From a virus, in the IMG/VR virus record IMGVR_UViG_3300027977_000099, positions 1-35,582 of that record: DNA of 35,582 nt. The stretch is one strand, 5' to 3'. Positions 7,642 through 26,057 of this stretch are shown here, piece after piece. The stretch's first letter is position 1. Each line of letters opens with the position of its first letter. The notes beneath the pieces were generated by a model. It had not been told where the DNA came from. It searched no databases and saw only the letters and a list, made by a program, of their open reading frames with translations. A program made the position numbers and the translations under genes.

Positions 7642-8754
7642 TTAAGACTCAGGATAATAAGGAATTACGTACTGCACACTGTTAATGAGGACCTTTAGAT
7701 ATCCAGCAGGTGTTGCTGGTAGAGCACTTGCTGCTCCTGCACTTCCGACAGTCGTCTGTGTGTCACCTGTTGCAAAAGCGGTTGATCCACTTGTTCCTTG
7801 TGAGCCAAGTGTTCCCTGGATACCGACAGTGCCTTGTACTCCTTGTACTCCCTGTGTTCCTTCAGTGCCTTGTGTACCTGTACCAGTTGCACCCTGTAAA
7901 CCAGATGCGCCTTGTGTACCTTCAGTACCTTGGCTACCAACTGTTCCTTGAGTTCCTTGCAATCCTTGTGCGCCAAGAGTTCCTTGAGCACCTTGCGTGC
8001 CAACTGATCCTTGTGTGCCGTCAGCGCCCTGCGCTCCAACTGTGCCTTGCGTTCCTTGAATAGCAGCGCCTTGTGCTCCCTGCGTTCCAAGAGAGCCCTG
8101 TACACCCTGTGCACCAGTTGATCCCTGTGTGCCTTGTATAGATGCGCCTTGAGTTCCTTGCGTACCCTGCGCCTGTGCAAAACCTGCACCAGCAGTTCCT
8201 TGAACACCCTGTACTCCACGGAATCCCTGTACACCCTGTGTACCTTGCGCTCCTAGATCTCCGTCAACACCTTTTGCGCCTTGCGCTCCTGTTGCACCTT
8301 GCACACCGAGGTGTCCTTGTGCACCTTGTGCACCTGCAGTTCCACGAGATCCCTGTACACCTTGAATACCTTGATCGCCATCATTTGCAGCAGTACCTTG
8401 TACACCTTGTACACCTTGTGCACCACTTGCACCAGATGATCCCTGCACACCTTGTGAGCCACGAGTTCCTTGTGTTCCTTGTGTTCCGTTATCGCCATCA
8501 ATACCTTGTGCACCAGCACTACCTTGTACACCCTGCGTTCCGTTAGTTCCGTTAGAGCCACCAGTACCTTGTGCACCAGTTGCACCACGAGATCCTTGAA
8601 CACCAGTACGGCCTTGTACACCTTGCGTACCTTGTGTACCTTCAAGACCATTGTCAGTCTCGATAGACTGCACACGAGTATTAAGGTCTTGAAGAGAGGC
8701 GTTGAGAGTTGTATCCCAATTTGCTTGGCCCCTAGTAGGTAGAGTGAATGTCAT
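7642..8754 (-). CDS. Collagen-like tail fibre protein
   Basis: This 370-aa protein has a short N-terminus (MTFTLPTRGQANWDTTLNAS), used by many phage fibres as the virion-attachment part, then about 285 residues of Gly-x-y triplets (GTQ, GVQ, GAQ, GSR), and a small C-terminal domain (TTVGSAGAASALPATPAGYL). The triplets predict a homotrimeric collagen-like triple helix. Proline is nearly absent, so stability must come from other residues such as Thr, Gln and occasional Arg/Asp. An AAGG ribosome site precedes the ATG. It is probably a shaft of a fibre or capsid fibre. Confidence 0.85.
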   Translation of the reverse strand: MTFTLPTRGQANWDTTLNASLQDLNTRVQSIETDNGLEGTQGTQGVQGRTGVQGSRGATGAQGTGGSNGTNGTQGVQGSAGAQGIDGDNGTQGTQGTRGSQGVQGSSGASGAQGVQGVQGTAANDGDQGIQGVQGSRGTAGAQGAQGHLGVQGATGAQGAKGVDGDLGAQGTQGVQGFRGVQGVQGTAGAGFAQAQGTQGTQGASIQGTQGSTGAQGVQGSLGTQGAQGAAIQGTQGTVGAQGADGTQGSVGTQGAQGTLGAQGLQGTQGTVGSQGTEGTQGASGLQGATGTGTQGTEGTQGVQGVQGTVGIQGTLGSQGTSGSTAFATGDTQTTVGSAGAASALPATPAGYLKVLINSVQYVIPYYPES

Positions 8755-9802: not shown

Positions 9803-11329
9803 TTATGCGTAAGTAATTGCTTCAACGGTGTTGTCTCCGCCTGTAGTCATAAACATTCCATTGCCATACGCAGTGTAATTTACTGAACCATAGTTTGTTG
9901 CGCCTGCACGTGTGCGTTCTGTCCACGTGATTGCATCTGTAGAGTTCAATGAGTTCTTGAAGTTGGTTCCAGAAAGAATCAAGAACATGGAGCCCGCAAC
10001 CCCAGGGACTCGACCCATTGCGCTAGGCGCAGTCCTTGTTACCCAAGTAATTCCGTCTGTGGTTGTCTGGTAAGTGGCACTGCCCTGATGGGGAACAAAG
10101 AACACGGAGCCGTTCCATCCGATTCCTGGTCCGACATTGCTTGCTACGTTCATAGTCCTTGCAGTCCAAGTAATTCCGTCTGGAGAAGTCTGTGCTTCGT
10201 TGGATGTATTTGACACAGAAAGAAAAATACCGTTACCCCATGCCATGCCACCCCAGCCAGCGGCTGAGGTACCAGTTCTTGCAGTCCAGTTAGTTCCGTC
10301 TGTCGAAGTCTCGATGAGAGTCGTGCCATACCCTGTTGCAGCAAAGATTGACCCGTTCCAGACCATTCCAAAACAGTTCTTGGAGCCATAGGTCCTTGCA
10401 GTCCAAGTACTTCCGTTAGATGATGTAGCGTAATCGGAACCCCCACCTGGCATGACAATAATGGTGCCATTCCCAGTAGGATTTCTCCAGGAAGTAGCAC
10501 TGGGTAAAGTCCTTGCAGTCCAAGTATTTCCATCTGTTGAAGTCTGTGCTACGTCCTCGCCGTAGTTTCCAGGAGGTGAACCTGGGACAAAGAATTGTGG
10601 AGCGATGAATACCCCATTGGCAAACCACATTGAGTAGTTTTTGCCCGAAACCATAGAAGTCTTTGAAGTCCAATTACCAAATACAGGAGCAGCAAGGGGA
10701 GTTACAGAGTTAGAAACAGAAGAAGCCGCAGATGTTCCATTGGCATTAGTTGCTGTCATAGTAAAGATATAAGCCTGACCTTGAGCAAATGTTCCAGTAA
10801 CAGTAAGAGGAGTCGAAGAGCCCGAAGTAGATAGAGAAATTGAAGGACTACTTGTTACTGTGTAAGAACTAATTGCAGAGCCACCAGTAGCACCCTCTGT
10901 AAATGGCACAGAGACAGTAGTGTTATTTGTTCTTGTAACTGTACCAATAGTAGGAGCCTGTGGAACAGTTGTGGCTGTAATGCTATTAGATGCCGCTGTT
11001 GCTGCAGATGTTCCTGTTGTGTTACCGCCTGTTACAGTAAATGTGTAAGAGGTCTGACTTGCAAGACCAGAGACAGTTACTGGAGAAGTTGCTGCAGTTC
11101 CAGTAAGTGATCCTGGGTTACTTGTTGCTGTATAGGTAGTTACTGTTCCGCCTGTTGTATTGGGCGTAAATGCAACTGTAGCGGCGCCATTATTGTATGC
11201 ACGGCTAGTGCCTACGTTAGTTGCCGTACCTATAGTGGGAGCATCAGGTACATCCATGATTTCAGAGATAGCACTAGCGCCATCGGGGGTTCCCTCGATG
11301 CGCTCATCTTGTGCTCTGCGATTACTCAC
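9803..11329 (-). CDS. Fn3-stalk adhesin with Asp-box-like propeller
   Basis: This 508-aa protein has a short N-terminus, two fibronectin type III domains (about residues 27-118 and 122-212, each starting near P-APTIG), and a C-terminal domain built of six repeats of a TSTDGNTWTART-like motif. The motif resembles the Asp-box (S-x-D-x-G-x-T-W) of sialidase-type beta-propellers but is one residue shorter. The module probably binds host-surface sugar or protein at the fibre tip. Its stalk is closely related to the one at 15651-17156, which carries a different head. No catalytic residues can be assigned. Confidence 0.8.
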   Translation of the reverse strand: MSNRRAQDERIEGTPDGASAISEIMDVPDAPTIGTATNVGTSRAYNNGAATVAFTPNTTGGTVTTYTATSNPGSLTGTAATSPVTVSGLASQTSYTFTVTGGNTTGTSAATAASNSITATTVPQAPTIGTVTRTNNTTVSVPFTEGATGGSAISSYTVTSSPSISLSTSGSSTPLTVTGTFAQGQAYIFTMTATNANGTSAASSVSNSVTPLAAPVFGNWTSKTSMVSGKNYSMWFANGVFIAPQFFVPGSPPGNYGEDVAQTSTDGNTWTARTLPSATSWRNPTGNGTIIVMPGGGSDYATSSNGSTWTARTYGSKNCFGMVWNGSIFAATGYGTTLIETSTDGTNWTARTGTSAAGWGGMAWGNGIFLSVSNTSNEAQTSPDGITWTARTMNVASNVGPGIGWNGSVFFVPHQGSATYQTTTDGITWVTRTAPSAMGRVPGVAGSMFLILSGTNFKNSLNSTDAITWTERTRAGATNYGSVNYTAYGNGMFMTTGGDNTVEAITYA

Positions 11330-13831: not shown

Positions 13832-14680
13832 TTAGTTCCCCTTAATTCCGTATAGGGCGAACTGTGTGTATTGAGCAAAGTCGCCTAATTCTAAAGTAAA
13901 AGTTAAAGAAGTTACAGCAGTAGTATTCATCCATAATCCAGATTGAAAACCAATATAACCACTTCCGTTGGCATCAAAACCATTTAGAAAACGCGCAGTT
14001 TTATTTTTAGAAGTATTAGCATAATCTAAAACGTCAAGTACTAAGGATGAAAAAACTGATGCAGTTTGATTTGCCGCTGGATTATCGTAAATATGAATGT
14101 AAGTCTGTGATGTAAGTGCTAATGCACTTGCAGAACTGCCATTGCCTTCTAATCTGTGACTTGCATAATTACTTCCGCTATCGCTGTTTAACCTTAAATA
14201 AACAGCGCGTGGACCAGAAGCGGCAGTTGAACGGGCAATGCCTCTAATCTGTAAATGCTGATATGTGCTAGGAATAGAACTAAATGTAATAGATGCTGCT
14301 CCACCTGCTCCTACCGTAGTGGTAGCAATAGAGTCATAGGCACCAGTAAGGAAGGATGTAGGAGTTACTGAAGAGGATGCAGCAGATGTAGCAGATCCTG
14401 TTGCATTAGAGGCTGTCACAGTGAAGGTATAGGCAGTTCCGTCGGTAAGGCCAGTAACATTTATAGGAGATGATCCTGTTCCTGTAATTCCGCCAGGTGA
14501 AGAGGTAGCGGTAAAGGTAGTTGCAGTTCCTCCAGTAACGGCTGCTGTGTAGGCTACAGTGACTGTACCTCCAGCAGTAGTATCTGCTACAGCGCCAATG
14601 GTAGGAGCATCAGGTACGTCAGCGATCGCAACACCACTCTTAGTGATGCTGGATGCATTTGCTCTCTTGATATTAGCCAT
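13832..14680 (-). CDS. Fn3-stalk fibre protein with jelly-roll-like head
   Basis: This 282-aa protein has a short N-terminus (MANIKRANASSITKSGVAIA), one Fn3 domain (about residues 22-110, PDAPTIGAVADTTAG to SSSVTP) and a C-terminal beta-rich domain (DSIATTTVGAGGAASITFSS to FALYGIKGN). The head is shared with 13311-13829 and 11919-13292; the stalk is shared with 9803-11329 and 15651-17156. It is preceded by copy B of the 29-nt repeat. It is probably a host-binding fibre. Confidence 0.78.
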   Translation of the reverse strand: MANIKRANASSITKSGVAIADVPDAPTIGAVADTTAGGTVTVAYTAAVTGGTATTFTATSSPGGITGTGSSPINVTGLTDGTAYTFTVTASNATGSATSAASSSVTPTSFLTGAYDSIATTTVGAGGAASITFSSIPSTYQHLQIRGIARSTAASGPRAVYLRLNSDSGSNYASHRLEGNGSSASALALTSQTYIHIYDNPAANQTASVFSSLVLDVLDYANTSKNKTARFLNGFDANGSGYIGFQSGLWMNTTAVTSLTFTLELGDFAQYTQFALYGIKGN

Positions 14681-15650: not shown

Positions 15651-17156
15651 TTATAGACCTGCGCTGTTAGCCGCTGCGCCGTTGGCAGAACCTACTCTAG
15701 CAGTTGATAAAGTTGCTGCTAAATTACTTCTTGTTTCATTAGAAAATGTTAACTTTTCAATCTTAGAGGTGTAGGCTCCAGTATTTCCACCAGCAAAATA
15801 AGCAGCCACGCCACTGTCGGCACAACCTGCCATATAACCAGTAGCGGCAGATAAAACTGCGCTAAGTGTTGATTTTGTTTCGCCTGAATATGCTAATTTG
15901 TCAATCCTAGTAACTGTAATTGTTGCAGCATTATAACCGCCAGCAATATACATGGCAGTTCCACTATTAGAAGCACCTGAAGGACCAAGCATAATATCAG
16001 TCAATACTGCTGCAATAACAGAGGTGGTATCTCCTGAAAAAGTTATTTTGTCTATCCTGTCTGCCCTGCCGTTTACATCGTTATCACCACCTGTGAAATA
16101 AGCCGCTGTACCACTATTCGCCGCACCTGTGAGTGCGTATCTGCCGTTGCTTAATGTAGCCGAGAGCGTAGTCTTTGTATCTGCCGAAAAAGCAACTTTA
16201 TCTATACCCGTCAGGTATGCGCCACCAGCCGTATACCCAGCAGTACCAGAGTTTGCGGCACCAGCAATAGATGAACGCGCCGTGGTTAAGGTAGCCGCTA
16301 AAGTAGACCTAGAATCTGCTAAAAAAGTTACCTTATCTATTACAGACGTGTTGGAACCCCCCGAATCTCCTCCCGCAAAATACCCAGCAACTCCACTATT
16401 TGCGTATCCTGCCAAAAAGTATCTTCCAACAGATAATGTTGCAGTCGATGTGGTCTTTGCATCTGAGGGGAAGGATATTTTGTCAATGCCAGCAATAGTC
16501 CCTGTATTGTAACCGCCAGCAAAGTAAGCATCGCGGGGTGCTACTGGGGTTACTGCACTAGAGGCAGAAGAGGCAGTGGATGAACCATTAGCATTGACTG
16601 CAACAATCTGAACTGTGTATGCCTGATTAGCAGCAAAAGTTCCTGTAACAGTTAGTGGGCTTGTAGTACCAGAAACTGACAAAGAAACAGATGGGCTAGA
16701 AGTTGCTGTGTAACTCGTAATAGCAGAACCACCAGTAGCACCAGCAGTAAACGGCACTGATAAAGTTGTTGAGTCGGTAACTGTAACCGTGCCAATAGTA
16801 GGTGCTTGCGGAACGGTAGTTGCAGTAATAGAAGATGAAGCAGCAGAGGTGAGAGTGCCGTTTGCATTAGCAGCACTTACTGTGAATGTGTAAGAAGTAG
16901 CAGACTGTAATCCAGTCACTGTAATAGGAGATGTACCTGTGCCAGTAAATGAGCCTGGTGTAGATGTGGCGGTAAATGTAGTAGCAGTTCCACCAGTTGC
17001 TGCTGCTGTGTAAGCAACAGTTGCAGAGCCATTGTTATAAGCACGGCTAGTTCCAACGTTAGTTGCTGCTCCGATGGTAGGGGCGTCTGGAACGTCGGCA
17101 ATAGGCGTGTTACCGCCCATGACGCTCTTTAATGAGACCCTGTTAGTGATAGTCAC
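15651..17156 (-). CDS. Fn3-stalk adhesin with kelch-like propeller
   Basis: A 501-aa protein with an N-terminal segment (MTITNRVSLKSVMGGNTPIA), two Fn3 domains (about residues 22-112 and 116-206) and a C-terminal array of six approximately 50-residue repeats. Each repeat has YFAGG-like and IDK(I/V/L)-x-(F/Y) signatures and an NSG/DSG turn. The array resembles a kelch-type beta-propeller. Stalks are almost interchangeable with those of 9803-11329. The product is probably a receptor-binding fibre; binding partner unknown. Confidence 0.8.
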   Translation of the reverse strand: MTITNRVSLKSVMGGNTPIADVPDAPTIGAATNVGTSRAYNNGSATVAYTAAATGGTATTFTATSTPGSFTGTGTSPITVTGLQSATSYTFTVSAANANGTLTSAASSSITATTVPQAPTIGTVTVTDSTTLSVPFTAGATGGSAITSYTATSSPSVSLSVSGTTSPLTVTGTFAANQAYTVQIVAVNANGSSTASSASSAVTPVAPRDAYFAGGYNTGTIAGIDKISFPSDAKTTSTATLSVGRYFLAGYANSGVAGYFAGGDSGGSNTSVIDKVTFLADSRSTLAATLTTARSSIAGAANSGTAGYTAGGAYLTGIDKVAFSADTKTTLSATLSNGRYALTGAANSGTAAYFTGGDNDVNGRADRIDKITFSGDTTSVIAAVLTDIMLGPSGASNSGTAMYIAGGYNAATITVTRIDKLAYSGETKSTLSAVLSAATGYMAGCADSGVAAYFAGGNTGAYTSKIEKLTFSNETRSNLAATLSTARVGSANGAAANSAGL

Positions 17157-17514: not shown

Positions 17515-18147
17515 TTACTCCTTCTCTAAGATATCACGGCGTTTTAACCCCGCGACCAATTCTGACACATAACTTATGTTCAATCCGTACTTGCGAGAAA
17601 TATCTGACTGGAACATTCCCTCAGAGACCAGTTTACGTATCTCCAGAACATCTGTATCGCTTAACTTTGCATTTGGGTGGTTTTCTCCAAAGACGTGACG
17701 ACCTTTAGCAACCTTATCTTGTGCATTATCTTTAGGGGTACCAACAAAGAGGTGGTTTGGGTTTACGCAAGGAGGATTATCGCACGTATGGCAGGCATGC
17801 CATCTTTCTGGAACTGGTCTCCCATCCATCTCTAAAGACAATCTATGGGCGTATTGGAGCCCGTCATTCCACCAGATTAACCCGTAGTTGGCTGCCGTCT
17901 TGGTTCCTGTCCATTCCCAGCACTCGTCCTCAGTTTTCACATCGACGTACCCCCAGAACCGTTCTGTAAGGGTATGGCTTTTGCACAATAACGATGGAGC
18001 ATAATTCCCCACCTGTGTTTGAGCAGGCTCTCCGCACCAACATAGAGGGGTAGGAGTTCCATATTTTTTGTTAATTTTCCAATGGGTACCGCATAAGCCG
18101 ATAGAACGATATTTATTAGTACACCCTGAAACTGAGCAAGTTTTCAT
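17515..18147 (-). CDS. HNH homing endonuclease
   Basis: A 210-aa free-standing HNH nuclease. The N-terminus has a likely zinc site (C4, C9, C19, H22). The HNH core is HACHTCDNPPCVNPNHL (residues 117-133), with H120, C122, C127, N129 and H132 as probable metal and active-site residues, typical of the HNH_3 type. The C-terminus (about residues 160-200, KLSDTDVLEIRKLVSEGMFQ) is a helix-turn-helix for DNA binding. Such genes spread by cutting alleles that lack them. This one abuts the start of the small gene at 17509 and the edge of the plus-strand island. Confidence 0.9.
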   Translation of the reverse strand: MKTCSVSGCTNKYRSIGLCGTHWKINKKYGTPTPLCWCGEPAQTQVGNYAPSLLCKSHTLTERFWGYVDVKTEDECWEWTGTKTAANYGLIWWNDGLQYAHRLSLEMDGRPVPERWHACHTCDNPPCVNPNHLFVGTPKDNAQDKVAKGRHVFGENHPNAKLSDTDVLEIRKLVSEGMFQSDISRKYGLNISYVSELVAGLKRRDILEKE

Positions 18148-18184
18148 CCTAGGAGTATAGTGCTTACTGATAGGGTATACACCT
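18148..18184. promoter_or_regulatory. Divergent intergenic region between HNH gene and glycan island
   Basis: Only 37 nt separate two divergent starts. A TATACT on the minus strand lies close upstream of the HNH ATG and could be a -10 box; GGGTATACA on the plus strand lies near the island start. With so little room the promoters would overlap, or extend into the coding ends. The ribosome sites are weak. This is only a candidate. Confidence 0.3.
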
Positions 18185-19186
18185 ATGAATCTAGTACATC
18201 GGTCTATTTTAAGCGGGGGAAAATTAGCCCCATTAGTTATTCCCTTCAGTTCCTCTCAAGGATTAGGGATAATGAATCCTTCCTTAATGGTGGATTCTGA
18301 TGGTGACATTCTCGTCAACATTCGCCAGGTCAACTACACACTTTATATTGCGGAAAATGATCAAAAGTTTTTTAGTCCATGGGGACCGCTCTCTTACTTG
18401 CATCCCGAGGGAGATCAACGACTAGTTACGACCAACTACTTGTGTCGTCTTGATAAAAATCTCAACATGGTTAACTACACCAAGGTTGATTACTCCGCAC
18501 TTGATGTTCCGCCTATCTGGACCTTCGTAGGAGAGGAAGACGCCCGTGTTGTGCAGTGGGATGGTGACTACTACTTGATCGGTGTTCGTCGTGACACCAC
18601 ACCTAACGGTCAAGGTCGCATGGAGTACTCCAAGATCGAGTTGGATAAAACTAACTGGACAGCCAAAGAGGTGCAGCGAGTTCGTATGCCGTCTACTGGA
18701 GATGACACTGCATACTGTGATAAGAACTATATGCCCATCATTGATAAGCCTTATCACTTTGTGAAGTGGACAATGCCTACAGAGGTAGTTTGGTCTAACC
18801 CAAATACTCCTGAGACTAAGCAGGTGCTGGTAAAAGAAACTCCTCCTGCTCCACGAGATCAACGAGGTGGATCGCATATTGTTCCTTGGGGCGATTTCTA
18901 CATTGGTATCACTCATGAGGTTCAACTCTGGAAAAATTACTTGAATCAGAAAGATTCAATCTACCGTCATCGCTTAGTTGTTTGGGATAAAGAGTTTAAC
19001 TTCAAAGGCCTTAGTGAACCGTTTTCTTTCTTAGACGTCCGTATTGAATTTTGCGTTGGAATGGCAATATTGGGTAAAGATTTATTGATAAGTTTTGGCG
19101 CAGCAGATAACGCTGCTTTTGTATTGCAGGTTCCAAAGAAGATTGTAAATGGAATGATTACGGAGGCTTTGTCTTATGGGAATTAA
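18185..19186 (+). CDS. Five-bladed beta-propeller glycosidase/phosphorylase-like protein
   Basis: A 333-aa protein starting MNLVHRSILSGGKLAPLVIP. It has IMNPSLMVDSDGDILVNIRQ (about residues 29-48), FVGEEDARVVQWDGDYYLIG (about 114-133), and DQRGGSHIVPW (about 225-235). The WxxxGEEDAR-v-WDG-YYl pattern with a GVRR follow-up resembles the GH43/GH32/GH130 five-bladed propeller fold that acts on sugars such as mannosides. I cannot name the substrate. It overlaps the next gene by 11 nt and heads the plus-strand island. It may trim or build glycans on fibres or host surface. A non-catalytic sugar-binding propeller is also possible. Confidence 0.6.
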   Translation: MNLVHRSILSGGKLAPLVIPFSSSQGLGIMNPSLMVDSDGDILVNIRQVNYTLYIAENDQKFFSPWGPLSYLHPEGDQRLVTTNYLCRLDKNLNMVNYTKVDYSALDVPPIWTFVGEEDARVVQWDGDYYLIGVRRDTTPNGQGRMEYSKIELDKTNWTAKEVQRVRMPSTGDDTAYCDKNYMPIIDKPYHFVKWTMPTEVVWSNPNTPETKQVLVKETPPAPRDQRGGSHIVPWGDFYIGITHEVQLWKNYLNQKDSIYRHRLVVWDKEFNFKGLSEPFSFLDVRIEFCVGMAILGKDLLISFGAADNAAFVLQVPKKIVNGMITEALSYGN

Positions 19187-19736
19187 AGAACTAGCAACCA
19201 AGTTATCTGAAGATTCTTTTAACCCACAGATCAACTTTGATCTTGCACAAGCCTACGATGCACAAAAGCAGTACGCATCTGCTGCAGGCTTCTACTTACG
19301 TGCTGCAGAGTACGGCTACAAGACGCATCCACTGATTGCTTACGCATCTCTACTGAAGATGGCGTTGTGCTGGTCAGCACAGGGCGATCGCAATCGCACA
19401 GTGTTCAACAACATCTTGCAGGCTGTTGCATTCTTACCTAATCGCCCAGAGGCGTACTTCCTATTGTCTCGTATCCACGAACGCAACAAGGAGTACCAGC
19501 AGTGCTACACCTATGCAGAGATGGGTCTGCTCTATGCAACCGCTACCTTCCACAACCCTCTTCCAGCATACGTCGATTACAACGGCGCATACTGTTTGAT
19601 GTTTGAGAAGGCTGTAGCAGGCTGGTGGTTAGGCCGCAAAGAAGAAAGCAAAGTTCTATTCCAGCATCTACTCGATGATCACCAGATGGCGCCAGAGTAT
19701 GTAAGCGGTTGCCTCAATAATCTGAAATTATTCTAA
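19176..19736 (+). CDS. TPR-like repeat protein
   Basis: This 186-aa protein (MGIKELATKLSEDSFNPQIN start) shows repeated helix pairs with TPR-type spacing: residues about 17-50 (FDLAQAYDAQKQYASAAGFY), 84-110 (PEAYFLLSRIHERNKEYQQC) and 140-165. TPR proteins are protein-binding scaffolds and often accompany glycosyltransferases. It overlaps the upstream gene and is followed one base later by the methyltransferase ATG, so it belongs to one operon. Its role is probably to hold the sugar-active enzymes or target them to a substrate; that is inference. Confidence 0.6.
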   Translation: MGIKELATKLSEDSFNPQINFDLAQAYDAQKQYASAAGFYLRAAEYGYKTHPLIAYASLLKMALCWSAQGDRNRTVFNNILQAVAFLPNRPEAYFLLSRIHERNKEYQQCYTYAEMGLLYATATFHNPLPAYVDYNGAYCLMFEKAVAGWWLGRKEESKVLFQHLLDDHQMAPEYVSGCLNNLKLF

Positions 19737-19737
19737 T

Positions 19738-20268
19738 ATGTTTCCTAATTGGTTCAAGAGTGTAGAGAAGTACTTCCGTCATGTGCCAGATGTGCCACTT
19801 CGTGCATTACAGATTGGCACCTACACAGGCGATGCCACAGAGTGGTTGATCGACAACTGCGAGATCGAGTACCTCGATGACGTGGATACCTGGGAGGGAA
19901 GTGAAGAGAAGGCACATGATCAGATTGACTTTACATCTGTCGAGGATTACTACGACTCCAGGTTTAAAGACCCACGCATCACTAAGCACAAGATGACTAG
20001 TGATGAGTTCTTCAATCGCCCATCTCGTACCTATAACTTCATCTATATCGATGGCGATCACACCGCTCTACAGACAGCCTTGGATGGTCTTAACGCCTTC
20101 AAACTCCTTGAGAAGGGCGGCGTCATGGCATTTGATGATTATCTATGGAACTACAACGGAGACCGCTTCCTAGAGCCTAAGGCAGGCGTAGACGGCTTCC
20201 TAGAGGTGTGTAAAGATCAATACACCATCATTGAATCTGGCTATCAGTTGTGGATTGAGAAGTGCTAG
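19738..20268 (+). CDS. Class I SAM-dependent methyltransferase-like protein
   Basis: The 176-aa protein has LQIGTYTGDATEWLI (residues 24-38) as the SAM-binding motif I and FIYIDGDHTALQTALDGLNA (101-120) plus LLEKGGVMAFDDYLW (123-137), the D-G-D-H and GG-motif regions of Methyltransf_24-type enzymes. These often act on sugars or small hydroxyls. It starts 1 nt after the TPR gene and overlaps the GT25 gene by 7 nt. It may methylate a sugar added by that transferase to cap a glycan. The substrate cannot be told from sequence. Confidence 0.75.
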   Translation: MFPNWFKSVEKYFRHVPDVPLRALQIGTYTGDATEWLIDNCEIEYLDDVDTWEGSEEKAHDQIDFTSVEDYYDSRFKDPRITKHKMTSDEFFNRPSRTYNFIYIDGDHTALQTALDGLNAFKLLEKGGVMAFDDYLWNYNGDRFLEPKAGVDGFLEVCKDQYTIIESGYQLWIEKC

Positions 20269-20993
20269 ATAACGCCTGCTACGAGGTCTTCCATACTGAT
20301 ACTGGAAATAACTTACGTAATAAATCCTATGAAGGAATTGTAGAGGCGCTCTCTTTTCTGCCACGTCTAGGTTCGCCCACGATGTACTTGAACACAGCAG
20401 ATAAGGCTGAGGCATTCGTCAATCAGACACCTGGCTTCAAGGTCAACACCGTCCATGACTACTGCCAGCCAGGTGAGACATTCCCACCCTCTGCTGGTGT
20501 CATTGGTGTGTGGGCTAGTAACTATTTGGCTTATAAGAAGTTCCTGGAAACAGATTACGACACCCTGATCATCTTTGAAGATGACATCTTGGTGAGCAAG
20601 AACTTCAAAGAGATTGTCACCATGTACATGCAGGAGTTAATGCCCATCTGGGACTTCTTCTCATTCTTTGTTCCAGATGACTCTCTGTTTGCCTATAACG
20701 AGGCGGTGCATGATCTTGGTGAGGAATTTACTTGTCGCTCATACCAGCAGTGGTCATGTGCAGGATATGCAGTCAGTCGCAAGGGCGCCCAACGTGCAGT
20801 TGAGGATGTGGAATCACGAGGAATCAACTGCCCAGTAGATTGGTACATCTTTAACTTCCGCATGAAGCAGGAAGCAGATCAGATGCGTTTTAACACATTC
20901 ACAGTTAAGCCTGGTGTATATCGCCCAATAAAGTTCTTATTAGAGGCAGCGCAAATCAGCCAAATACATAGGGGTAGTACAGAACTGCTTTAA
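20262..20993 (+). CDS. GT25-like glycosyltransferase
   Basis: This 243-aa protein starts at GTG. It has SAGVIGVWASNYLAYKKFL (residues 77-95), TLIIFEDDI (101-109), AGYAVSRKGAQ (167-177) and PVDWYIF (191-197), the order and motifs of family 25 glycosyltransferases (LPS beta-galactosyltransferases and collagen galactosyltransferases), with the EDD metal/nucleotide-sugar site. It overlaps the methyltransferase by 7 nt. It ends 1 nt before the convergent collagen-like fibre gene on the other strand. The likely role is adding a hexose to a virion or host glycan. Confidence 0.8.
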   Translation: MLDNACYEVFHTDTGNNLRNKSYEGIVEALSFLPRLGSPTMYLNTADKAEAFVNQTPGFKVNTVHDYCQPGETFPPSAGVIGVWASNYLAYKKFLETDYDTLIIFEDDILVSKNFKEIVTMYMQELMPIWDFFSFFVPDDSLFAYNEAVHDLGEEFTCRSYQQWSCAGYAVSRKGAQRAVEDVESRGINCPVDWYIFNFRMKQEADQMRFNTFTVKPGVYRPIKFLLEAAQISQIHRGSTELL

Positions 20994-20994
20994 G

Positions 20995-22460: not shown

Positions 22461-25400
22461 TTAGGCCTTAACTACCACTCTGTATGACTGAGTTGTAATT
22501 GGGGCTATTGCAAATCCGATTGTAACTGTGTCGTTTGTTACGTACACAATATCTGTTACAACTTCGGCCTTTGTAGAGGTATCCCATACGGTAACCATGA
22601 TGTCTGTAGTTCCTAGGCTGTGTGTGATTGTGAACTGTGTAGTTCCAGTCACACCAGCATCTGTGGAAGTTCCAGTAATTGTTTCTGCGTAAGTTCCTAG
22701 TTGACCAGAGGTACCTTGAGCACCCTGAGTTCCTTGGGCTCCAAGTGTTCCTTGAGTACCGTCAGTACCCTGAGCACCAACAGTACCCTGAGCACCTTCA
22801 GTTCCTTGAGTACCAAGAGTACCTTGGGTACCTTCGGTACCCTGAACGCCTTGTGCACCTTCAGTACCCTGGGCACCAGTTGTACCTTGTACACCAGTAG
22901 CACCATCGAGGTTAATTGTCCATGAAGAGTATTCTCCAGAACCAACTACGTCGTTAACATTTACGACGAGTGTGTTAGTTCCTGATGTGTAACTTACTAC
23001 CGTTGCAGACATGTGGTTGTTTACATCGTGTGCAACAACAACATCCTGACCTACTGAGTAAGAAAGATCTGGATCAGCCAATACAAAACTTACGTTATTT
23101 GCTACTGCAATCGAACGTGTAGTAGCAGAGGTTGTCTTGTAACGGTCTGAGTGTCCGTCAGTACCTTGAGTACCTTCTGTACCCTGGACTCCCTGAGCAC
23201 CAACAGTACCCTGAGATCCTTCAGTACCTTGCGTACCTTCAGTTCCCTGTGCACCTTCGGTTCCCTGGGCTCCTTCGGTGCCCTGGGCTCCTTCAGTACC
23301 TTGAGTTCCATCAGTACCCTGGGTTCCTTCTGTACCTTGAATTCCTTGTGCAGCAAGTAACGTCCAGAATGCTCCTTCTGAAGGAGTATTTCCAACAGTG
23401 CCACCATTAGCATCAATTCGATACCAAGTCTGACCGTTGTAAGTTGCTACATCGCCAATTGCATACGCGGTTCCTACGCCATAAGCGCCAGTAAAGTTCC
23501 ATAGTGCCGCTGTTCCTTGAGTTCCTTGAGCACCTTCAGTACCTTGAGTACCGTCTGTACCCTGGGTTCCTTGAGTTCCTTCAGAACCCTGGACTCCCTG
23601 TGTACCTTCAGACCCTTGGACTCCCTGTACACCTTCGATACCTTGAGCACCTTCGGTGCCTTGAGTTCCTTGGGCTCCGAGTGTTCCCTGAGTTCCTTGA
23701 GAACCGACAGTGCCTTGAACGCCTTGGGCGCCTTCAGTACCCTGTGTACCTTGAGCACCGACGTCGCCAGTACGAGCAAAGGTGATCAGTACAGAGTCTG
23801 CTTCTGAGAGTGAGCCTGAACCGCTGAGGTAGGTCACGTCAATGTTAAAGTATGTAGCGTTGTCAACCATTGAGTTGATTGCGTACATCGCAAATACTGC
23901 AGGGTTAGACTTTAAGGAAACTTTTACGTGTCCCTTAATTGTCGATGTTGAATCATCGATTGTCTGCAGGTAGTTTGAGATATCTGTGTTTGAAGCATCG
24001 ACGTCATCGATAAACATGTGAGTTGCACTTGCTAGTGCAGCATTAAATCTAACGACGTTATCGCCTGGATCTGATGCAGTTGTGTCAGTGTAGTAGAGAT
24101 ACTCAACAGTCACACCACCGAATGATCCAGCAGCACCAACAGTACCTTGAGATCCTTCTAGACCCTGCGCTCCTTCGGTACCCTGAGTTCCTTGGGCTCC
24201 TTCTGCTCCTTGTGTACCTTGAGTTCCCTCAGTTCCTTGAACGCCCTGTGTACCTTCAGTTCCCTGTGTACCTTGAGTTCCTTCTGAACCTTGTACGCCT
24301 TGAGTTCCGTCAGTTCCCTGTGTGCCTTGTGCACCTTCAGATCCCTGTACTCCTTGCGTACCTTCTGTACCTTGGGCTCCAAGAGTTCCTTGAGTTCCCT
24401 GCGATCCCTCTGTACCCTGTGTACCTTCAGTACCTTGAGCACCTTCTGCACCGTCGGTACCCTGCGCTCCTTCTGCACCTTGAGCGCCATCAGTACCTTG
24501 AGTTCCTTGAGTACCTTCAAGACCTTGTGCACCATCGGTACCTTGTGTACCTTGAGCACCAACATCTCCTGTACGAGCAAAAGTGAATAGTAAATCGTCT
24601 CCATCGGTAAATGACCCATTACCAGAGACATAAGCAACTTCTACATCAAACCAGTTTGCTGCTGAATCTGTAGCACTAGAGATTGTGTAAAGTGCAAATG
24701 TAGATGTGTCAAACTTCTTAGAGACTTTAACGTGACCCTTGATGGTAGATGTTGAGTCATCGATTGTTGCTAAGAAGTTAGAGACGTCGTAGTTACCATC
24801 AGCAGGATTGTCACCTAATGCAATGTGTGTAACTAGAGTTTCATCTGCGTTGTTTAGACGAGCCTTGTTGTCACCTGGGTCTGCCATTGTTGTGCTGTCG
24901 TCATAGACGTACGCAACTGTGATACCGCCAAATGAACCTTCAGCACCTTGTAAGCCTTGCTGACCTTCTAATCCTTGAGCACCTTCGGTGCCCTGTACGC
25001 CATCAGTACCCTGTGTTCCTTGGGCGCCTTCTGTACCTTGCGCTCCTTCAGTACCCTGTGAACCCTCGGTACCTTGCGTACCTTCTGTACCTTGAGCACC
25101 TTGAGCACCTTCGGTGCCCTGCGTACCGTCTGTTCCTTGTGTACCTTGAGCACCCTCTGTACCCTGGGAACCTTCAGTACCTTGAGTTCCATCAGTACCC
25201 TGGGTTCCTTCTGTACCTTGCGTACCATTAGCACCATCAAGTCCCTGTGCACCAGCAGTACCTTGCGTACCCTGTGCACCAGTAGTTCCTTGGGTTCCTT
25301 CGCTTGCGTTGATCCACGCAGTACCATTCCATGTCTTTACAACATGGTCAGTCGTGTCGTAGTAAATCTGACCTTCGACTGGGTTGGTTGGCTGGCTTAT

Positions 25401-25478
25401 TGTAGGGAGATTCTGAATACGGGCATTCAGAAGTTCTAATTTACCTAAATCAATTGGGGTTAAAAACTTACGGGCCAC
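22461..25478 (-). CDS. Giant multidomain collagen-like fibre (1005 aa)
   Basis: Starts at GTG (GGAG 9 nt upstream). Domain order by residue: 1-60 attachment-type N-terminus ([31 protein letters not shown]); 61-181 collagen; 182-305 beta-rich module 1; 306-451 collagen; 452-573 module 2; 574-656 collagen; 658-712 CBM5/12-like module (aromatic, [14 protein letters not shown]); 713-775 collagen; 778-860 a beta domain; 861-928 collagen; 930-1005 C-terminal domain. The triplets are [12 protein letters not shown] with no Pro or Lys/Arg, so the shafts are acidic and Thr-rich. It is probably a long trimeric fibre; glycosylation may stabilise it. Confidence 0.88.
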
Positions 25479-25490
25479 GGTCTATCTCCT

Positions 25491-26057
25491 TTAAGATAAG
25501 TAGGCATTACCTGAGAATGATGCTTGGAATGAGACCGTTAATGAGTTCGAATTAGTGTACGTAATTTCACCTTCAACAATGTTACCAGCAGAGTCTACAA
25601 CTGTAACGTTAGGCTTGAATCCTAAATTATGGGCAATCGTCCAGGAGTCGCTGGACGACCCCTGCATGTGCTCATATGAGACACGACTAACTGTAAAGTA
25701 TTTATTTGTCGTACCCTCAGTAAGATCATCAGTGGTACTAATATCTGAGCCGCTAACTCCAGGCTCACCTTGTGGACCTTGTGGACCTGCAACACCCTGA
25801 GTTCCTGTACCAGTTGCTCCTTGAGTACCCTGTGTTCCAGCACCAGTAGTGCCTTGAACGCCTTGGGTACCTCGTGTACCTTGGGCTCCTGTAACTCCTT
25901 GAGTTCCCTGAGCGCCAGTTACTGCTCCGCCACCAGAGCATGAACTGCAACCGCAATTTGATGCATGGACAGTTCCTTCAGGTGTTGTTATGAGTACGAC
26001 GTTGTTAACTGCAATTGGTACCGTTGCAGATCCTGGACGGGTGTACTGATTCGTCAT
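25491..26057 (-). CDS. Short collagen-like protein with Cys cluster
   Basis: The 188-aa protein has an N-terminal domain (MTNQYTRPGSATVPIAVNNV), a CGCSSCSGGG cluster at residues about 35-44, a collagen stretch (about 49-100) that includes the only Pro-containing triplets (GPQGPQGEPG), a DDLTEGTTNKYFT linker and a C-terminal beta domain (about 127-188). The Cys cluster just before the triple helix could cross-link three chains or bind a metal. The linker is shared with the fibre at 20995-22194. It overlaps the upstream gene as ATGA. Confidence 0.8.
   Translation of the reverse strand: MTNQYTRPGSATVPIAVNNVVLITTPEGTVHASNCGCSSCSGGGAVTGAQGTQGVTGAQGTRGTQGVQGTTGAGTQGTQGATGTGTQGVAGPQGPQGEPGVSGSDISTTDDLTEGTTNKYFTVSRVSYEHMQGSSSDSWTIAHNLGFKPNVTVVDSAGNIVEGEITYTNSNSLTVSFQASFSGNAYLS

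Follow-up and report, generated by a model that had tools for sequence, protein, structure and literature searches.

A phage gene island that follows proline-poor collagen and probably modifies the phage's own tail fibres

Gene content of the island and its collagen neighbours

We analysed a 35,582-bp stretch of DNA (the window), IMG/VR virus record IMGVR_UViG_3300027977_000099, which comes from a freshwater phage with a contractile tail and encodes its structural proteins, among them the sheath and a T4-type tube, together with a terminase 53% identical to that of Streptomyces phage BRock. Nearly all genes of the window lie on the minus strand. Within its fibre region, four genes (P1 to P4) form an island on the plus strand (18185–20993), where an earlier note on this DNA had placed them and where we confirmed their open reading frames (ORFs). 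The collagen tail fibres of the phage itself are probably what this cassette modifies, a reading for which we infer the target, donor, acceptor and order of steps.

P1 (18185–19186, 333 aa) is the core gene of the island and encodes a predicted five-bladed-propeller enzyme of GH130/GT108 fold, recognised by structure modelling, Foldseek and profile alignment. It is followed by its core partner P2 (19176–19736, 186 aa), a tetratricopeptide repeat (TPR) protein (Pfam TPR_17, 4.5e-6), by P3 (19738–20268, 176 aa), a class I methyltransferase (Methyltransf_24, 2.1e-12) predicted to O-methylate sugars, and by P4 (20262–20993, 243 aa), a GT25 glycosyltransferase (3.6e-11) with an EDD motif at residues 106–108. 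These assignments agree with those made earlier from the sequence. The genes had also been described as four overlapping ones: P1/P2 and P3/P4 do overlap, by 11 and 7 nt, whereas P2 and P3 are separated by 1 nt. P4 converges with a minus-strand collagen gene across a 1-nt gap, as had been noticed. Each island gene is under purifying selection (dN/dS, the ratio of nonsynonymous to synonymous substitution rates, of 0.03–0.14 against four relatives; 0.04–0.12 for P3), and P4 and P1 have 111 and 70 relatives, respectively, among viral contigs. We therefore conclude that the island ORFs are genuine genes.

The collagen gene next to P4 (20995–22194, minus strand) encodes a 399-aa fibre with an Mtd_N N-terminal domain (Pfam Collagen, 1.3e-22; Mtd_N, 4.4e-13). 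Its 50 triplets are Gly-X-Gln repeats that include no proline, with threonine at a fraction of 0.46 of X positions and glutamine at 0.68 of Y positions. A 1005-aa fibre of GTQ/GTE/GTD triplets (22461–25478, minus strand; Collagen, 1.7e-68) likewise has no proline in 166 triplets, with threonine at 0.55 of X and glutamine at 0.55 of Y, which bears out the earlier description of these collagens as rich in threonine and almost free of proline. Both are likely substrates of the island. Possible substrates are a 188-aa protein with a short tract of 16 triplets (25491–26057, minus strand; Collagen, 2.3e-5, below cut-off) and a 370-aa fibre with 89 triplets and no proline (7642–8754, minus strand; Collagen, 4.8e-39).

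Association of P1 with collagen type

Phages carrying P1 have proline-poor Gly-X-Gln (GXQ) collagen, with about 0–2% proline in most and glutamine at roughly 50–80% of Y positions, whereas capsid-related phages without P1 have Gly-Pro-Thr (GPT) collagen with 15–26% proline. In the set of phages that have the window's capsid protein, the 19 P1-positive members with collagen were all of the GXQ type and the five P1-negative members with collagen were all of the GPT type. Mapped on the capsid-protein tree, collagen type and P1 were fully concordant wherever P1 was known (these 19 and 5); the tree requires two or more switches. In two P1-negative relatives (L487 and L488), the genes beside the GPT collagens gave no Pfam enzyme match. 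A bias in G+C content was rejected as the cause of low proline in the capsid family, in which the values overlap (0.43–0.51 for GPT vs. 0.45–0.46 for P1-positive members such as L012, L151, L181 and L197).

An independent sample was assembled from viral contigs of at least 20 kb picked by collagen DNA patterns alone, with composition thresholds fixed before P1 was searched for. P1 was found in 12 of 29 GXQ contigs (11 of 28 without one already known) and in 1 of 34 GPT contigs (Fisher's exact test, p = 6e-4), and in 9/17 vs. 0/15 when contigs were at least 40 kb long (p = 1e-3); both p-values are approximate, as GXQ contigs had a somewhat greater length and a lower G+C content and related contigs were kept in the sample. 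The lone P1-like match in a GPT contig (L486:89–2104) was weak and partial (E = 9e-19) and lay in a GT2–TPR protein, which may mark a distant related family. Here G+C content was lower in GXQ than in GPT loci (0.40 vs. 0.48), and an effect of G+C may be at work in this sample. Threonine at X was modestly enriched in P1-positive collagens (median 0.25 vs. 0.12, p = 0.016 in one of six tests, uncorrected). Glutamine at Y was the steadier feature, common to GXQ collagens with and without P1.

The earlier note had named as the competing idea a role in host glycan modification. The island would then alter host surface glycans during infection, to keep out rival phages or stop progeny from adsorbing again, and its place in the fibre locus would reflect a clustering of host-recognition genes there. 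Glycosyltransferases in the host-recognition region of pelagimyophages have been read in this way (PMC7029224), GT25 includes bacterial β-1,4-galactosyltransferases, and GH130/GT108 enzymes act on mannans. Such a role does not predict, however, that P1 should follow GXQ rather than GPT collagen, and it sits poorly with the almost complete lack of P1 in cellular genomes (a pattern-limited scan of 84,980 genomes returned four contigs, one of them with collagen genes) and with the preference of the P4 fold for a collagen galactosyltransferase (see below). We regard it as the main rival, and as rather unlikely.

Position of P1 and P4 relative to collagen genes

A search for the island genes beside collagen in related phages had been suggested. 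P4 had a collagen gene no more than 18 nt away in 109 cases, whereas five loci that leave space for one show Fn3 or other genes after P4 instead (L007, L008, L009, L018 and L045). In L007, Fn3-like genes stand between P4 and collagen. Simple descent could explain the adjacency of P4 and collagen. The placement of P1 is more telling: it was found at distances of up to 4 kb from collagen genes in each of the four possible relative orientations. In cyanophage DSL-LC02, it lies between collagen and tail-fibre genes. In independent P1-positive records, P1 was within 2 kb of collagen in 6 of 11, against about 2.5 expected (p = 0.015, a rough value based on approximate collagen spans). Homologues without collagen fibres would have spoken for a different target. 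Collagen was present in 23 of 25 P1-bearing records; of the remaining two, one is a 34-kb fragment and the other has P1 about 1.3 kb from its end.

Predicted enzymes of the island

P1 scored below the curated cut-off for Pfam GH130 (PF04041; E = 0.018, 14.4 bits against 26) and is therefore described as having a GH130/GT108 fold, not classed as a GH130 member. With Pfam alone yielding only this sub-threshold hit, the identification was settled by structure. The best Foldseek match of an AlphaFold2 model (mean predicted local distance difference test, pLDDT, 86.9) was 1,2-β-oligomannan phosphorylase (E = 9e-9). VIA-align Z-scores were 23.7 for RaMP1 (over 280 residues), 23.3 for MGP and 17.9 for Leishmania MPT-2, a GT108 transferase using GDP-mannose (GDP-Man). 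The top 21 rows of the fold ranking were all GH130 phosphorylases and related glycosidases (Z 20.6–23.7), followed by GH43 (at most 18.4). As modelled, P1 clearly has a five-bladed GH130-like propeller fold, in line with the earlier label of a propeller-type sugar-active protein; the link to mannose and the P1–P2 core had been missed.

In a profile alignment, E118-D119-x-R121 of P1 falls on the EDPR site of GH130 enzymes, and D308 on the third mannose-site residue. Mannose subsite −1 of Teth514_1788 consists of Asn28/Asp92/Asp281 (PMC4264767). D119 and D308 pair with both mannose-recognising Asp residues, which gives matches to two of the three residues known from the GH130 mannose site; N31 is invariant among aligned P1 proteins but was not among the residues paired in that alignment. 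E118, D119 and D308 occur in 51/51 aligned P1 proteins and R121 in all except L146 (24% identity), an outlier that also lacks a phage-specific GVRRDT-type motif otherwise kept in P1 proteins of very different phages. A PDB profile search with P1 returned propeller lectins matched on short repeats and was uninformative beyond the EDPR and Asp stretches. P1 is best described as a predicted mannosyl phosphorylase/transferase-like protein, as the fold alone cannot separate phosphorolysis from GDP-Man-dependent transfer. In one lineage, a mannose-6-phosphate isomerase gene adjoins P1.

The fold and partial mannose site would also suit an auxiliary metabolic gene that degrades or salvages β-mannosides of the host or environment, and in Synechococcus phage S-SCSM2R the gene is annotated "MGP" and lies near nrdA/nrdB. 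We consider this very improbable given the TPR gene that immediately follows P1 in 65 of the 68 distinct loci, the association with collagen type, and a lack of transporter or catabolic genes nearby in the loci inspected.

P3 exceeds the cut-off for Methyltransf_24 (PF13578; 48.3 bits against 26.3), a family fused to TPR in L151. P4 exceeds that for GT25 (PF01755; 43.8 bits against 24), and its E106-D107-D108, an acidic metal/UDP-sugar motif, is invariant in 31 aligned rows. Profile matches to P4 included the GT25 structure 8xlz (1.3e-6), COLGALT1 (1.2e-3) and mimivirus R655 (0.014). Its model, of moderate confidence (pLDDT 74.8), has a predicted GT-A fold matching COLGALT1 and GT25 galactosyltransferases; the closest solved fold was human COLGALT1 (Foldseek E = 6.6e-10, Z 17.0), ahead of R655 (Z 13.5) and bacterial GT25 (Z 11.7). 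Lysine was also considered as the residue that receives the GT25 sugar. Many collagens next to P4 have a tract capped by a single GDK (lysine in 52/72), but 42/105 other collagens have it as well, which makes this unconvincing.

The earlier argument that GT25 includes collagen galactosyltransferases agrees with this nearest fold. Alone it is weak, because GT25-like genes of Streptomyces phages sit among DNA-replication genes, away from fibres. That placement could suggest enzymes that glycosylate phage DNA. For this island the idea is scarcely credible: its genes lie among fibres, no base-modification genes were recognised in the 35.6 kb, and it does not account for the tie between P1 and collagen type.

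A conserved P1–P2 core with variable partners

The TPR assignment of P2 is above cut-off for TPR_17 (27 against 24.4 bits) and TPR_19 (25.7 against 25). P1–P2 occurs in about 70 phage contigs, in two Synechococcus phages (DSL-LC02 and S-SCSM2R) and in jumbo phages. In other phages P3–P4 are missing or swapped for other modifying enzymes, namely FkbM methyltransferases, TPR–FkbM and TPR–Methyltransf_24 fusions, a fusion of TPR, FkbM and radical S-adenosylmethionine (SAM) domains, DUF6445 proteins, 2-oxoglutarate (2OG)-Fe(II) oxygenases, and GT2 and GT4-type enzymes. P1–P2 is thus the conserved core of the island, paired with variable enzymes. In DSL-LC02, a 717-aa TPR–FkbM–radical SAM/SPASM protein directly follows P1 (L145:12935–15088); a similar fusion occurs in L480. 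The 2OG-Fe(II) oxygenases (PF13640, PF13759) lie beside P4 (L018:3279–3914) or are flanked by P1 and a GTQ collagen of great length (L477:8053–9262). Theirs is classic collagen-hydroxylase chemistry, and a further fibre modification is possible. Two contigs (L127 and L129) carry two P1–P2 copies each, on opposite strands about 6 kb apart.

A core of this kind could instead serve proline-poor collagen fibres as a structural element or a chaperone, with an inactive propeller that binds sugar or collagen and with P3–P4 as separate passengers. The absence or replacement of P3–P4 elsewhere favours such a module, which fits the association with collagen type equally well. It leaves unexplained, however, why conservation in P1 extends across very different phages to E118, D119, D308 and numerous other polar positions, and why P2 is fused elsewhere to FkbM, Methyltransf_24, radical-SAM or DUF6445 domains. 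We think an inactive module quite unlikely. The fusions point to a TPR protein that delivers a range of chemistries to one shared substrate.

Other genes around the island

Directly left of the island lies an HNH endonuclease gene (17515–18147, minus strand), not a fibre gene. L116 and L117 have it in the corresponding position, but it was not detected there in most relatives, and it is therefore probably a mobile insertion. The fibre cluster also encodes, on the minus strand, three Fn3 fibre proteins (9803–11329, 13832–14680 and 15651–17156), two of which continue into repeats of propeller-like appearance, and another adhesin type with a glycine-rich C-terminal Gly_rich_2 domain (PF21722; 11919–13292). 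In L009, a small tail protein (MAHFAELDE...) is apparently fused to a P3-like methyltransferase next to P4 (2369–3193, minus strand).

Proposed modification of collagen fibres

In the proposed scheme for fibre modification, P2 would hold the unfolded Gly-X-Gln chain, much as animal prolyl 4-hydroxylase uses a TPR-type peptide-binding domain. P1 would transfer or remodel mannose on the chain, mannose being the likely first sugar; P4, as a relative of GT25 galactosyltransferases, would add or extend a hexose; and P3 would O-methylate the sugar as a cap. The glycan could replace proline as a stabilising and hydrating element while decorating the fibre, with variety in antigenicity and adsorption as a possible benefit. 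Threonine at X is a plausible acceptor, with glutamine at Y as the alternative; the order of steps and the acceptor residue are guesses. Modification of the neighbouring collagen, as the earlier note had proposed, gains from the covariation of P1 with collagen type, the four orientations, the diversity of the phages and the COLGALT1-like fold, whereas its threonine acceptor meets only modest enrichment at X next to steadier glutamine at Y. We further suggest, tentatively, that phages may have an independent, proline-free route to stable collagen: a TPR protein would recognise the Gly-X-Gln chains, a GH130/GT108-fold enzyme specific to phages would mannosylate them, and exchangeable GT25, methyltransferase, radical SAM and 2OG oxygenase enzymes would give each phage its own fibre coat.

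Several points weigh against fibre modification. The evidence for glycosylated fibres is indirect, and within the capsid family the covariation could go back to just two events. In the independent sample, 17 of 29 GXQ contigs lacked P1 (contigs may be incomplete), so that P1 may not be a requirement for GXQ collagen. P1 is far from collagen in the large phages G032, G034, G038, G048 and G049 and in S-SCSM2R (L144). GH130 enzymes can break down mannosides as well as make them. Few GT25 structures are available, and COLGALT1 as the best match of P4 could partly reflect what has been solved; moreover, COLGALT1 acts on hydroxylysine and these phage collagens are nearly without lysine (0–1 per tract).

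Collagen-like fibres are widespread in phages, and the island names a specific enzyme set together with a collagen type that predicts its presence. Modification genes are tied to a putative fibre substrate across independent phages (11/28 vs. 1/34, in four orientations). DSL-LC02 and S-SCSM2R, two sequenced Synechococcus phages with both P1–P2 and GXQ collagen, offer a testable case. If the proposal is correct, the island would represent a prokaryotic-virus route to glycosylated collagen, with a bearing on phage adsorption and fibre stability, and would supply enzymes for recombinant bacterial collagen.

Comparison with known systems

Viral collagen glycosylation is already known from mimivirus, and phage virion glycosylation from mycobacteriophages. 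Our literature searches returned nothing specific on phage collagen glycosylation or on stabilising or modifying proline-free phage collagen fibres, nor did they bring up a phage cassette that has a GH130-fold enzyme at its core and goes with proline-poor collagen. Mimivirus has both collagen and collagen glycosyltransferases (R655 and L230), as we propose for this phage, R655 being the next fold match of P4 after COLGALT1; unlike the phage, mimivirus is a eukaryotic giant virus with hydroxylysine chemistry, and we know of no GH130-type enzyme or TPR core there. Human COLGALT1 (GLT25D1) shares with P4 its family, EDD motif and closest fold (over 213 residues), but is only about 15% identical, has a second glycosyltransferase domain and uses hydroxylysine. 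The GH130 mannoside phosphorylases and GT108 Leishmania MPTs resemble P1 in fold, EDxR catalytic site and third mannose-site Asp, whereas identity is 10–16% and the GVRRDT motif is specific to phage P1. BclA-type collagen is Gly-Pro-Thr with threonine at Y; in this phage threonine is at X and proline is absent. The BclA collagen of Bacillus carries sugars thought to aid hydration and stability (PMC8968730). In mycobacteriophages, according to the citation of Freeman et al. 2023 in PMC12619734, virion proteins are glycosylated at the C-termini of capsid and tail-tube proteins; there sugars are found on virion proteins, whereas here we propose them for collagen fibres.

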